From Bryobacteraceae bacterium (GTDB taxonomy: Bacteria; Acidobacteriota; Terriglobia; Bryobacterales; Bryobacteraceae): DNA of 5,912 bases. Position numbers and translations under genes: made by a program. Where the stretch lies: assembly GCA_025350445.1 (NCBI GenBank), contig JANXXV010000506.1:1-5912 (forward strand). Direction: 5' to 3'. Positions 136-5,689 of the stretch are shown in pieces. The first letter of the stretch is position 1; every line of letters starts with the position of its first letter. A model generated the notes under the pieces. The model ran no database searches, had not been told where the DNA came from, and saw only the letters and a program-made list of their open reading frames with translations.

Positions 136-1569
136 CTAGCCGAATACCTTGGTGATCACGCTGCCGCCGAAATCAGTCAGTTTTTCATGCCTGCCGTTAT
201 GCAGATACCAAAGCTGGTTTTGGTCCAGACCCAGCGCGTGCAGAATCGTCGCATGGAAGTCCCGCATGTGGTGACCGTTCACCGCGCGCAGACCCATCTC
301 ATCCGTCTCGCCAATCACTTGTCCACCCTTCACGCCTCCCCCGGCGAACCACATCGTAAACCCATGCGGATTGTGGTCGCGCCCGTTGCCGCTTTGCGAC
401 ATCGGCAGACGGCCGAATTCGCTGCCCCAGACCACGAGAGTGGAATCCAGCAGGCCACGCTGCTTCAGGTCTTTGAGCAGCGCCGCGACGGGTTGGTCCG
501 TCAGGCCGCACATCTTTTCGTGATTCGCTACCAGGTCTTTGTGCGCGTCCCACTGAATGCTTACCGGGCCGCCTCCAGAGTACAACTGCACGAAGCGGAC
601 GCCCCGCTCCACCATGCGGCGCGCCAGCAGGCATCGCGTTCCGAAGTCCGCGGTGTGTTTCCGATCGAGCCCGTACATTTTTCTGGTCGCCTCGGATTCC
701 TTGGTCAGGTCGACAGCCTCCGGCGCGTGGCTCTGCATGCGGAAAGCCAGTTCATAGGAACTGATGCGCGCCGCCATCCCGGTGTCGTTCTCCGACGTGT
801 CCAGATCGTTCATCTTCTGCAGCAGATCCAGCGTGGCCCGCTGCCGCTTGGCGGTCATGCCCTCAGGCGGCTTCAGATTCAGAATGGGATTGGAACCGCT
901 GCGAAGAAGTGTCCCTTGATAAACGGCGGGCAGGAATGCCGAGCCCCAGCAGGGCGTTCCGCCTTCGGGCGTCCCTTCCGGCTGTGGCATCACGACGTAC
1001 GCCGGCAGATTCTCACTTTCGCTGCCGAGCCCATACGTTACCCAGGACCCCATGCTGGGATATCCCATCAGAATACGGCCGGTGTGGACCTGATACATCG
1101 CGGGAGCGTGAACGACACTTTCGGTATAGAAGTTGCGGACGAAGCAGATATCGTCGACACACTGCGCGACATTGGGAAACAGCGCTGAGACGTCCATGCC
1201 GGATTGCCCGTGCTTCTTGAATTCCCAGGGCGAGGAGAGAAGCGGATCGTCGCCTTTCGTAAATTGGCTTTCGATTCGGCCAAAGCTGTCCGGGAGCTTC
1301 TGGCCTTGAAATTTCTTGAGCATCGGCTTGGGATCGAAAGTATCCACGTGGCTCGGCGCGCCCACCATGTAAAGGAATATCACCGATTTGGCTTTCGCTT
1401 CAAAGTGCGGCTTCTTCGACGCCAAAGGATTGCCGCGGACCTTCGCGGCAGCTTCCCGCGCCAGCATCTGCTGCAACGCCAGCGCGCCGAAGCCGTGTGC
1501 CGCGCCGCGCAGAACATCGCGCCGGGTGAGCGCGGGCCGAAAATGCTCAGGGTATATAGACAAACTCAT
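136..1569 (-). CDS. DUF1501 family protein with Tat signal (477 aa)
   Basis: This is an exported protein of the DUF1501 family, whose biochemical function is not established. The family belongs to the alkaline phosphatase/sulfatase fold group, so a metal-dependent hydrolase is a reasonable inference. The N-terminus carries a twin-arginine motif TRRDVL (residues 15-20) followed by a hydrophobic stretch to about residue 36, suggesting export folded through the Tat pathway. Candidate metal-binding motifs are HVDTFDPK (74-81), WDAHKD (340-345), SEFGR (383-387) and GRDHNPHGF (396-404). Length is normal for the family, with no truncation. The ATG at 1569-1567 lies 20 bases before the stop of the upstream DUF1549/DUF1553 gene, a 23-base overlap. 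No Shine-Dalgarno sequence precedes it, so expression probably depends on coupling to the upstream gene. DUF1501 genes habitually pair with DUF1549/DUF1553 genes in Planctomycetes, Verrucomicrobia and Acidobacteria, which supports a joint role. Substrate and partner interaction are unknown. Confidence 0.93.
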
Positions 1570-3727
1570 TGCGATTCAGAAGAGCCAGACAGAAGTCCGG
1601 CATCGATCCTTCTGCGGTGAAAAACTCGTTCGCCATTTTGATCTCGCTTGCTACAGGCAGTCGGGAAAGCGTCAGCTTATAGGCGCGCCGCAACTGGCAG
1701 ACGCGGTCCGGGCCGCATTCGGTCTTGAGCCGCTCGGCAAACGCCTCGGATTGCTCATGCATAAACCCGCTGTTCATCAGAGTCAGCGCCTGTAATGCAT
1801 GCGTACTGGTTAGCCGCACCGGGCAGGACGTCATGGTGTCGGGCTGATCGAAGTTCATCAGCAGCGGCAACCGAACGGTGCGCTTGTTCAACAGATACAG
1901 GCTGCGGCGGTTGTGCTCATTCTTATCCGCTAAGAGAGGCCAGAGATTGTCGGGTTCGGCCTCACTAAAAATCAACTCGTAGATTTCTTTGTCAATGGGC
2001 ACCTTCACAGGCACGCCGCCCATGCGCGGATTCAGCTTCCCGGTAGCTGCCAGGACGCCATCGCGAATCGCCTCGCCTTCCAGCCGCCTGCGGTTCGCCC
2101 GCCAATAGAGAGCGTTGTCCGGATCGCTTTTCGACTTCCGCAAGTCATCCGAGGCAGATTGCATGTAAGCGCTGGAGAGAACGATCATGCGGTCAATGGC
2201 CTTGACGCTCCAGTTGTTCGTCATGAACCCGGTGGCGAGCCAATCCAGCAGTTTCGGATTGGTGGGGCGTTCGCCAAGTCTCCCAAAATCGTTCGGCGTG
2301 CGCACCAGACCGGTGCCCATGCGGAACTGCCAGATGCGGTTCACCATCACGCGAGCGGTGAGCGGGTGCTCCTCGGAAGCCAGCCAGTTCGCCAAGGCCG
2401 AGCGCCGGCTGCACGCGTCTCTTGTGACGCCTCCGTTGTTCACCGAAAGGACCGAGGGCAGGCCAGGCTCAACGGGAGCGAGCTTCTGATGGGCGTCCCC
2501 GATCTTCAGGATGTACGCCTGCGGAGCCTGGGCTGCATTCTGAACGGCGTATGCAGTGGGGAGCGGCTGCGGTTCAGTGAGTTCGATTTCATGCAGCCGC
2601 TTGCGCAGCGCCGTGCGGCGTTCGCGGTCAGGGGTGGACAACACCGCCAGCACTTCATCCCATGAGGATCCGATTTGCGCCGTGGCGTCCTTGGCCAGCC
2701 GCGTTTGTTCTTCGGTGCGTTTTTCCTTCGGCGCATCGAGAGCTTCGCGGAGCTTCGGCTCCAGTTGCGCGGTCTTCTCCGCCTTGATCTTCTCGCGATA
2801 AGGCTTTTCGATCTCCGCAATCTGGTCGTTGATGGGCTTCAAGCGCGCTTCGTAGACTTTGACATCCTGGGCGTGCTGCCCGCGTTCTTCACTGGAAGAC
2901 AAGTCCACATCTTTGCCTTCGGTTGAGGCGAAGACGGCTTGCATGCGGTAATAATCGGCCTGCAGGATAGGATCGAATTTGTGATTGTGACACTTGGCGC
3001 AGCCGATGGTCATACCCAGGAACACAGATCCGATAGCCCCGGACATTTCGCTCAACACTTCCTGCCGGTTCGCTTCTTCGTCCTGATTACCGCCCACCAA
3101 ATGGATCGGCCCGGCGCGATGAAAACCGGTTGCGATCAAAGCATCGTTGCTGCGCGGGTAGAGTTCATCGCCGGCGATTTGTTCCTTCACGAACAGGCTG
3201 TATGGCTTGTCCCGATTGAAGCTGCGGACCACGTAGTCTCTGAAGCGCCAGGCGTGCAGGCGTTCCAGGTCGAGTTCGTAACCGTTCGTGTCGGCATAGC
3301 GGATCACATCCAGCCAGCGCTGTGCCCAACGTTCGCCGTAGTGCTGGGATTGGAGCAGCCGGCCCACCACCTTCGCATAGGCATCGGGAGAATGGTCCGC
3401 CAGAAACTGGTCTACTTCAGCGGGAGTGGGCGGCAGCCCGATGAGGTCGAGCGTGACGCGGCGCAACAGACGGGCCTTGCCGAGTGGGGCGGACGGTTTC
3501 ACATTCTTCGCATTGAGCGCTTCCAGCAGAAACGCATCGATCGGCGTCCGGACCCACGGATCTTCGACGGCAGGAATCGCATCGCGGATAGGCTTCTGAA
3601 ACGCCCACCAGTTGCGGCGATTTCCGATGAAGGCTTCTTCCTTCGGATCTACTCTCGGATCCGGCCACGCAGTTGCCGCAACAATGATTAGGATTCCGGC
3701 GGCAATGGCGGTGCGTCTGCGGCGCAT
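1547..3727 (-). CDS. Secreted DUF1549/DUF1553 (PSCyt2-PSD1) protein, no N-terminal cytochrome domain
   Basis: A 726-residue exported protein of unknown function. A signal peptide or membrane anchor occupies residues 1 to about 22 ([11 protein letters not shown], then a hydrophobic core). The DUF1549 domain spans roughly 60-265, with family signatures [16 protein letters not shown] (87-102), [16 protein letters not shown] (131-146) and [11 protein letters not shown] (243-253); the last holds a CxxCH sequence that could bind haem c. A Lys/Glu-rich, probably coiled-coil segment covers about 283-384. DUF1553 follows from about 441 to 705 ([37 protein letters not shown]), ending in [11 protein letters not shown]. 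Larger relatives have an extra N-terminal PSCyt1 cytochrome domain, absent here; the sequence goes from signal peptide to the linker RNWWAFQKP (38-46). I chose the ATG at 3727-3725 because it starts the signal peptide and follows a purine-rich GAGGAGA; an in-frame ATG at 3772 would add 15 unlikely residues and overlap the upstream gene. It pairs with the overlapping DUF1501 gene. Confidence 0.92.
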
Positions 3728-3729
3728 GT

Positions 3730-3736
3730 CTCCTCT
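3730..3736 (-). promoter_or_regulatory. Shine-Dalgarno site for the DUF1549/DUF1553 gene, overlapping the upstream stop
   Basis: On the minus strand the sequence reads TAGAGGAGACATG. The first TAG (3737-3735) is the stop of the RdgB-UDGb fusion gene, and AGAGGAG sits directly before the ATG at 3727. The ribosome binding site thus shares bases with the stop codon. It decides the start of the downstream gene in favour of 3727 over the in-frame ATG at 3772, and implies that both genes are read from one mRNA. Confidence 0.7.
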
Positions 3737-4958
3737 ATTCTTCACACAACACAGAGGCCTTTTCAAATACATCCAGCAGCATACGGTCCGTCAGCTTGCC
3801 GGTGGAAGTATTCTGCCGGCTTGGATGATAGGAACTGAGCAGCAGTGGTTGTCCGTCCCCAACCGCGTGAACCACATTGTGGCCGAATGCGAAGGGCGCC
3901 CGTGTGTGGATGATTCCCTGTTCTTTTAGGATGGCGAGGTAGTTGTCGAAGGCGAGTTTCCCCAGCGCCACCACCACCTTCAAATTTCGCAAGAGCTGTA
4001 GTTCCCGCACCAGATAAGGCCGGCAGCGCGCTATTTCATCGATGTCAGGCTTGTTATCGGGCGGAGCGCAGCGGACCGACGCTGCGATATAGGCGTCGTT
4101 AAGTACCAACCCATCGTCCAGGTACCGGCTGCCGGGTTGATTGGCGAAACCCGCCGCATGCAGCGCGCGGTACAGGTAGTCACCGGAACTATCCCCGGTG
4201 AAGACACGACCGGTGCGGTTGGCTCCGTGAGCGCCAGGGGCCAAGCCGATGATGGCCACGCGCGCCTTCGGATCGCCGAAGGACGGCACCGGTTTGCCCC
4301 AATAATCCCAATCGCGAAACGCACGGCGCTTCACCAGTGCGATCTGCGTGCAGTGTGCCACTAGACGCGCGCATTGACGGCATTCGACGATCTCCCGCTG
4401 CAGCGCTTCGAGTAGATATTCGCGCATGGCCGCCAGGGCCCGGGCCCGGTGGCTGACCGTTTGCTTCTGTGCGACCGGCACTTCGCCAAAGCTGCGGCCG
4501 AAGCCGGGGTAGTAGAACAGGGGATCGTAACCGAAACCACCGCTGCCTCGCGGCGCATGAAGCAGCTCGCCTTCCACTTCGCCGCGAAACGTTTTCAATA
4601 ATTGCCCTTGACGCGCCAGCGCGATCACGGAAACAAATCGGGCGCGGCGATCCGCGATGCCACCCATACGCTCCAGTACCAAACGGTTATTGGCCTCATC
4701 CGTCGCGCCTTCGCCGGCATAGCGGGCCGAGTAGACCCCGGGGGCTCCGCCAAGCGCGTCTATCACCAGACCCGAGTCATCCGCAAACACTTCCTCCGCG
4801 GTGAACCGGCTGTAATAGATCGCCTTCTGAATTGCGTTGTCTTCGAACGTCTGTCCGGTTTCCTCGCATGGCTCGATGGTGGAAAGACCGGGCAGTACTT
4901 CGGCGCCAAACTCACGCAGTTTCCCTGCATTCGTGGTGGCGCCGTACAGCTTCTTCAC
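3735..4958 (-). CDS. Fusion of RdgB/HAM1 dITP/XTP pyrophosphatase and family 5 uracil-DNA glycosylase (UDGb)
   Basis: A single 407-residue frame encodes two complete enzymes. Residues 1 to about 186 are RdgB/HAM1, which hydrolyses dITP, ITP and (d)XTP to the monophosphate and pyrophosphate. Its motifs are all present: TTNAGK (8-13), FADDSGL (58-64), [10 protein letters not shown] (73-82), GFGYDPLF (141-148) and SHRARAL (169-175). From about 187 to 407 lies a family 5 uracil-DNA glycosylase. Four cysteines fit a 4Fe-4S cluster (C193-x2-C196, C297-x14-C312). Other signatures are [12 protein letters not shown] (219-230), [19 protein letters not shown] (238-256), CAPPDNKP (297-304) and [14 protein letters not shown] (377-390); D256, N301 and H378 are candidate active-site residues. 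Some characterised UDGb enzymes also excise hypoxanthine and xanthine. Both halves have the usual stand-alone length, and the linker is essentially one helix. The start is GTG, overlapping the rph stop as GTGA, with AGAAGGAAG about 12 bases upstream. An internal ATG (4427-4425, M178) has no Shine-Dalgarno sequence, so separate UDGb initiation is unlikely. No stop or frameshift is visible at the junction. Confidence 0.93.
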
Positions 4959-5689
4959 TTCGATGCGAGCGCTTCCTTCTGAATCTCGATCAAGTCGCGG
5001 ACGCCGCGCGAAGCCATCGCGATCATAGACAGCAACTGCGTGTCGTTGAACGGAGTCTTCTCTCCGGTCGCCTGCAACTCAACGAAATGGCCGGAGCCGG
5101 TCATCACCACGTTCATGTCCACCTCGGCCTGCGAATCTTCTTCATAGTTCAGATCGAGCATCACCTCGCCGCGGACTACGCCGACGCTGGTTGCGGCGAC
5201 GAATTCCTTGATCGGGATGGTCTTCAGCTTGCCGAACGAGACCAGTTTCCGCAGCGCCATCACCAGCACCACGTAGGCGCCCGTGACCGCGGCGGTGCGC
5301 GTGCCGCCATCGGCCTGCAGCACGTCGCAATCGATGATGATACTACGCTCGCCCAGCGCTTGCAGGTCCACCACCGTGCGCAAAGAACGGCCGATCAGGC
5401 GCTGAATTTCCAGCGTGCGTCCACTCGGCCGGCCCTTCACAATCTCGCGCGGCGTGCGTGTTGCCGTGGCTCGCGGCAACATGGAATATTCCGCCGTCAC
5501 CCAACCCTTGCCGGTGCCGCGCTGAAATGCCGGGACCGTTTCCTCAATGGAGGCAGCGCATAGAACGCGCGTGTTTCCAACTTCGATGATGGCGGAGCCT
5601 TCGGCGGTCAGCAGATAATCGGTGATCAGCCGGACCGGGCGCATTTCATCCGCTTCGCGGTTTTCTCTTCTATTGATGGATTTTTGCAA
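4955..5689 (-). CDS. rph: Ribonuclease PH
   Basis: RNase PH is a phosphate-dependent 3'-to-5' exoribonuclease that trims the 3' ends of tRNA precursors and other RNAs, releasing nucleoside diphosphates; it works as a cytoplasmic hexameric ring. The 244 residues match the usual length. Signatures include [14 protein letters not shown] (62-75), [15 protein letters not shown] (90-104), [20 protein letters not shown] (119-138), acidic residues D179 and D185, and the phosphate-site region TGSG (197-200) with ELQATGE (204-210). The start appears to be TTG at 5689-5687: the family's N-terminal pattern R-x-D-G-R-x-x-D-x-L-R-P-V is matched by residues 7-19, so the ATG at residue 16 would delete conserved sequence. 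In that pattern the common DGR reads ENR here. A GAG overlapping the upstream stop is the only Shine-Dalgarno-like sequence. The stop overlaps the next GTG start by four bases. An rph-rdgB pairing is common in bacteria and fits RNA and nucleotide housekeeping. Confidence 0.96.

Follow-up and report, generated by a model that had tools for sequence, protein, structure and literature searches.

A rare in-frame fusion of an RdgB-type pyrophosphatase and a family 5 uracil-DNA glycosylase in a bacterium related to Bryobacteraceae

The stretch of DNA considered here (5,912 nucleotides, hereafter the window) belongs to a bacterium related to Bryobacteraceae, among the soil acidobacteria, and encodes, in a single gene, an RdgB/HAM1 nucleotide pyrophosphatase followed by a family 5 uracil-DNA glycosylase (UDGb). 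The genes and features discussed below all lie on the minus strand, as follows.

4955..5689, minus strand: rph (RNase PH), directly upstream of the fusion; the 5' limit is the TTG given by the ORF tool, and the true start is uncertain
3735..4958, minus strand: RdgB-UDGb fusion gene, 407 aa, GTG start at 4958, stop codon at 3737-3735
4416..4958, minus strand: RdgB/HAM1 (dITP/XTP pyrophosphatase) half, residues 1-181, with F38, D61-S62-G63 and S169-H170-R171 present
4383..4451, minus strand: junction helix, residues 170-192, the C-terminal RdgB helix running unbroken into the first UDGb helix with no linker predicted
4425..4427, minus strand: in-frame ATG at codon 178; initiation here would yield a whole UDGb
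3738..4415, minus strand: UDGb (family 5 uracil-DNA glycosylase) half, residues 182-407 (start at about 182), with C193, C196, C297 and C312, N302 and H378
136-3772, minus strand: PSCyt2/PSD1 (DUF1549/DUF1553) and DUF1501 genes, behind the fusion

The TGA stop of rph and the GTG start of the fusion overlap in the four bases GTGA, and initiation of the fusion is probably translationally coupled to rph. Behind the fusion, the PSCyt2/PSD1 and DUF1501 genes show a 23-base overlap; the ATG at 3772 is probably a false start, and GAGGAG precedes the ATG at 3727. The fusion is one frame of 407 residues with zero internal stops. Its GC content by codon position is similar before and after the junction, and likewise in the 40 codons flanking it to either side (0.70/0.46/0.72).

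The N-terminal half is readily recognized as RdgB. Pfam places a Ham1p_like domain at residues 6-181 (E 8.1e-58), with a PF01725 score of 195.8 bits against a cut-off of 22.5 and coverage of profile positions 3-186 of 186, and TIGR00042 scores 160.5 against a cut-off of 145.35; PRK14822 scored 201.4, under its cut-off of 234, and the remaining narrower RdgB models likewise fell under theirs. The best solved relatives of residues 1-182 are HAM1 proteins. Moreover, K13, E33, F38, D61-S62-G63 and the SHR motif (S169-H170-R171), which we take to be the conserved active-site residues of RdgB/HAM1, are invariant in an alignment of 51 rows comprising the three fusions described below and 48 RdgB proteins. 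This half is predicted to hydrolyse (d)ITP and (d)XTP to the monophosphate and pyrophosphate. It differs from known RdgB/HAM1/ITPA pyrophosphatases (PF01725, TIGR00042; E. coli RdgB, 1k7k/2pyu) in ending directly in a UDGb domain. Membership in a defence system was considered, as RdgB-like KomB (9v0g, 8zsg) is among the fold matches, yet it was rejected: PADLOC-DB yielded 0 families matching the fusion protein at E 1e-3, and the neighbours are rph and the PSCyt2/PSD1 and DUF1501 genes.

The C-terminal half carries a Pfam UDG superfamily match at residues 225-399 (E 4.2e-29), and the best solved relative of residues 184-402 is the UDGb of Thermus thermophilus (2d3y); the domain is nearer to family 5 than to family 4 or UdgX. 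Six residues (C193, C196, C297, C312, N302 and H378) are invariant in an alignment of 45 rows, made up of the three fusions and 42 UDGb sequences (19 proteins and 23 translated matches from loci). H378 aligns with residue 190 of 2d3y, presumably the motif-2 His, and N302 with chain residue 120. The corresponding N120 of the Thermus enzyme is reported to be catalytically important (PMC5387724), and family 5 enzymes are described as carrying a [4Fe-4S] cluster (PMC5295032), for which the four cysteines would be the ligands. This half is predicted to start base excision repair at uracil in DNA, with hypoxanthine or xanthine in DNA as possible further substrates by analogy with characterized relatives. 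The N-terminus is free in stand-alone family 5 enzymes (T. thermophilus UDGb, 2d3y/2ddg), whereas in the fusion it is the continuation of an RdgB helix. The sequence-only reading had proposed a one-polypeptide fusion of two complete enzymes with intact motifs; the single open frame, the Pfam and structural matches to each half and the retention of the invariant residues all bear this out.

How the two domains meet was examined in a pair of AlphaFold2 models, for which RdgB relatives supplied the alignment in one case and UDGb relatives in the other. DSSP assigns helix to residues 170-192 in both, and mean pLDDT over residues 171-180, 181-190 and 191-200 is 71, 85 and 83 in one and 96, 85 and 68 in the other. 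Since a separate alignment was used for each half, each model is good in one half only: one mainly in residues 181-407 (with dips near 211-220 and 241-250), the other in 1-190, with a mean pLDDT of about 71 in both. The relative placement of the two domains in the models is accordingly not reliable. Fold matches assign the RdgB-type fold to model residues 1-185 and the UDGb-type fold to 181-407, an overlap from which the two domains seem to share one helix without a flexible linker.

A whole-protein search recovered the same fusion in two further records, P0002 (89% identity, 407 aa, longest contig 115,259 bases) and P0003 (86% identity, 430 aa, longest contig 2,615 bases), both with the same architecture and the same junction. 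Among the three fusions, similarity is 83-88% over the RdgB half and 87-89% over the UDGb half, and the junctions are of the same length; the sequence of P0002 where RdgB crosses into UDGb is AAMRAFLLQLVQREIV, and the crossing point is identical in the window protein, P0002 and P0003. Compared with the window protein, P0003 has 23 extra C-terminal residues.

These two were the only fusions among the best 120 proteins for the whole-protein query, and the same two were the only ones with a UDG domain among the best 120 proteins of 224-712 aa for the RdgB region; both searches scored only the 8,000 or so candidates sharing most words, and a more distant fusion could escape them. Genomes were surveyed around G001, the genome of a Bryobacteraceae bacterium (locus L001), with 237 genomes of its family covered. 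The fusion query is matched in 235 of these, but among the matches listed none covers the RdgB half: the earliest stop-free match begins at query residue 132 (G026) and the earliest overall at 84 (G131, over two stop codons). RdgB is itself matched in 222 of the 237. At E 1e-101 or better, one of 399 class-level and one of 396 phylum-level genomes matched (the sets overlap), in both cases the UDG-only match of G001. UDGb was found in all 80 loci taken from 80 of 171 relatives (tblastn, E 1e-3), and neither rdgB nor rph was detected near it in any of them at that threshold, within up to 6 kb per side (less on some shorter contigs). A mobile origin was also rejected, as 0 of 75 plasmid and 0 of 36 phage records with a match cover 80% of the query and 0 of 11 stretches of viral contigs that matched a pattern encode a relative. 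The RdgB-UDGb architecture is thus genuine but rare. As far as the titles and opening lines of abstracts in the open-licence PMC literature reveal, an RdgB/HAM1-UDG fusion is apparently undescribed, in agreement with the sequence-only reading, to which the architecture was unfamiliar as a described enzyme. Each of the two enzymes is of a known kind; their domain combination is real and new.

In the closest unfused relatives, rdgB and udgB are separate genes. Each half of the fusion is roughly as similar to its nearest stand-alone counterparts (UDGb, P0004-P0008, 84-89%; RdgB, P0240-P0258, 77-86%) as to the corresponding half of the other fusions. Six of 13 UDGb entries (P0004-P0016) are equal in longest-contig size to one of the 19 RdgB entries (P0240-P0258), at 2279, 9636, 12117, 25265, 27948 and 39230 bases; the source tags agree fully in four of the pairs and overlap in two. 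The other seven have no RdgB entry of equal longest contig. From the equal sizes we infer that these are the same contigs, with the two genes near each other. In the pair with the 2,279-base contig (P0006/P0240), coding lengths of 591 and 687 bases would leave a gap between rdgB and udgB of at most about 1 kb, and both members of another pair (P0013/P0248) are labelled as coming from a Bryobacteraceae MAG. In 32 of 32 more distant, distinct genomes of the G001 family (the 30 best-scoring of the 222, together with G001 and G104), rph immediately precedes rdgB, at a distance of no more than about 100 bases, and udgB was found beside the pair in none of them, within a flank of up to 1.5 kb.

Comparison of the ends of the stand-alone proteins with the junction indicates what was lost. 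The stand-alone RdgB P0240 ends in ...MREYLKGIEANDGAPGSAA and the stand-alone UDGb P0004 begins MTALQVLQREI; relative to such proteins, the fusion is without the RdgB tail of about 14 residues, which is present in the nearest stand-alone relatives, and without the first two or three residues of UDGb. The final residue of the stand-alone RdgB tails is A, E or K in 17 of 19, which at the protein level is compatible with an ATGA overlap of stop and start. An rph-rdgB-udgB cluster is the most likely setting in which the fusion arose. To judge from the relatives, udgB would have come to lie behind the old rph-rdgB pair in the lineage of the window; a small deletion would then have removed the unconserved RdgB tail and the first residues of UDGb, and the last RdgB helix would thereby run on as the first helix of UDGb.

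Whether this happened once or twice is less clear-cut. In the RdgB tree, P0003 pairs with the unfused P0244, away from the other two fusions (support 98/93 and 96/92), which complicates a single origin. The three fusions form one clade in 0% of bootstrap trees for RdgB and in 27% or 37% (two runs) for UDG, and for each half the unconstrained trees require two changes. For neither half does the AU test reject a clade of all three fusions (RdgB, p 0.13; UDG, p 0.48). Single residues, compared between the three fusions and eight stand-alone proteins in each half, point both ways. An L in the junction column is common to all three fusions; A in UDG column 22 and F in column 35 are common only to the window protein and P0003; UDG columns 178, 187, 190 and 202 and RdgB columns 41, 80 and 170 unite the window protein with P0002; and UDG column 109 and RdgB column 167 unite P0002 with P0003. 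That the junction is identical in all three favours one event, with recombination perhaps following it. Two separate origins of the junction, or its spread between related populations by recombination, are also conceivable.

Fusions of rdgB with other partners offer a point of comparison. In P0195, P0202, P0220, P0225 and P0235 (435-469 aa), the rph-rdgB pair is united as an RNase PH-RdgB fusion. Like the protein described here, these (P0202 and P0195 are examples) join rdgB to a neighbour of the rph-rdgB pair, but the partner is upstream and acts on RNA, and there is no DNA repair domain. P0130 combines RdgB with a cytidine/tRNA-adenosine-deaminase-like domain (PF00383, PF14437), so that one polypeptide pairs a deaminase with an inosine-nucleotide pyrophosphatase. 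P0122-P0127 are RdgB proteins of 332-340 aa with a C-terminal part that we read as cupin-like; a Pfam scan of three of them (P0122-P0124) found no second domain. At locus L123 the cupin-like gene is separate, about 22 bases after the rdgB stop, and has its own ribosome site. The six long proteins seem to read through such a site, rdgB having joined its downstream neighbour in another lineage. In the deaminase and cupin-like proteins, as here, the second part lies C-terminal to RdgB, though the partners differ; moreover, in P0122-P0127 the ribosome site and start of the second gene are apparently still present, unlike in the RdgB-UDGb fusion. Elsewhere the same two kinds of enzyme occur in one cell but are encoded apart; T. 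thermophilus, for example, has an RdgB besides its UDGb.

Our main reading, to which we assign a probability of roughly 0.7, is that the gene encodes a bifunctional enzyme that prevents and repairs, formed by the in-frame fusion of two neighbouring genes. Both halves look functional, since the catalytic and invariant residues are kept in both halves of all three fusions. RdgB and UDGb would be made in a fixed 1:1 ratio from one start. Human ITPase is described as a homodimer with its active site close to the dimer interface (PMC5075207), and if the RdgB half dimerises like its relatives, each particle would bear two glycosylases on stiff arms. By analogy, it is plausible that cleaning of the pool is coupled with repair at the same lesions: T. 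thermophilus UDGb is reported to remove uracil, hypoxanthine and xanthine (PMC8438529), and the substrates given for M. tuberculosis UdgB are uracil, hypoxanthine and ethenocytosine (PMC8011731). However, family 5 enzymes differ in their substrates, and the UDGV of Sulfolobus acidocaldarius (SacUDGV), for which the source reports removal of neither hypoxanthine nor 7-deazaxanthine (PMC5295032), counts against coupling at the same lesions. In E. coli, loss of rdgB is reported to lead to chromosome breaks via excision of hypoxanthine by Endo V (PMC3288088); pool cleaning would therefore set the load on excision repair, which makes a link between the two activities sensible. In this account we infer the presence of both activities, dimerisation, the gene order before fusion, the deletion and the benefit of coupling.

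Several other explanations must be weighed against this one. That an assembly or sequencing error united two adjacent genes is hardly credible: rdgB and udgB are apparently close in relatives, so a small deletion error could imitate a fusion, but the same fusion and junction in two other full-length records 86-89% identical to the window protein can be neither chance nor a local assembly error, and codon-position composition is smooth over the joint. Of the two observations that the sequence-only reading had set against itself, separate genes are indeed found in the closest unfused relatives, but the shared junction speaks against an indel artefact. It is unlikely that the gene gives two products, the full-length fusion and a free UDGb made from the internal ATG or by proteolysis. 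A UDGb initiated at 4427-4425 would be 230 aa long, near the 228 aa of most stand-alone proteins P0004-P0016; by eye, however, the 30 bases preceding this ATG hold no Shine-Dalgarno-like sequence, the same Met occurs within the last helix of stand-alone RdgB proteins (e.g., P0240-P0245), and the predicted helix would offer no loop for cleavage. Very unlikely, too, is an arrangement in which one half is active and the other is a scaffold, with RdgB, for instance, doing no more than dimerise the glycosylase. Selection on one partner can be relaxed after fusion, but each of the three fusions retains complete catalytic motifs in both halves, and RdgB is otherwise kept across most genomes of the G001 family, as the count above attests.

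A more serious rival, to which we give somewhat less than even odds, is that the fusion is a neutral accident in which co-transcribed genes lost the intervening stop and the halves work as before, tethered without functional coupling. Co-expression of neighbouring genes would already supply much of the coupling, and rdgB has acquired other partners, some without an obvious common lesion: RNase PH (P0195, P0202), a cupin-like part (P0122-P0124) and a deaminase (P0130). The junction bears no trace of a purpose-built linker, and the fusion is rare, with separate genes in its nearest relatives, so it is not needed for function. Against this, the fusion persists in three sequences 83-89% alike per half with catalytic positions intact, and the start of UDGb has been lost, leaving the joined form as the only evident product. 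Our confidence in the bifunctional enzyme and in the neutral accident overlaps, since an enzyme with both activities may equally be the product of a neutral fusion. A stronger version of the bifunctional reading, in which an RdgB dimer is the rigid frame that holds two glycosylases and the cleaning of dITP and dXTP is coordinated with removal of the same bases from DNA in one particle, we regard as doubtful; such coordination may, for example, take the form of nucleotide-dependent control of the glycosylase through the modelled shared helix (170-192).

If both halves are active as predicted, sanitation of the nucleotide pool would here be physically tied to base excision repair in a natural protein, and should the UDGb half accept hypoxanthine or xanthine, one protein would both prevent and repair the same deamination products. 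The balance of RdgB against hypoxanthine excision matters, given the breaks reported in E. coli on loss of RdgB (PMC3288088), and the fusion is a ready test object for asking whether tethering changes the mutation rate. Together with its relatives, the locus seems to preserve apparent stages of a fusion: unlinked genes, apparent neighbours and a fused protein.
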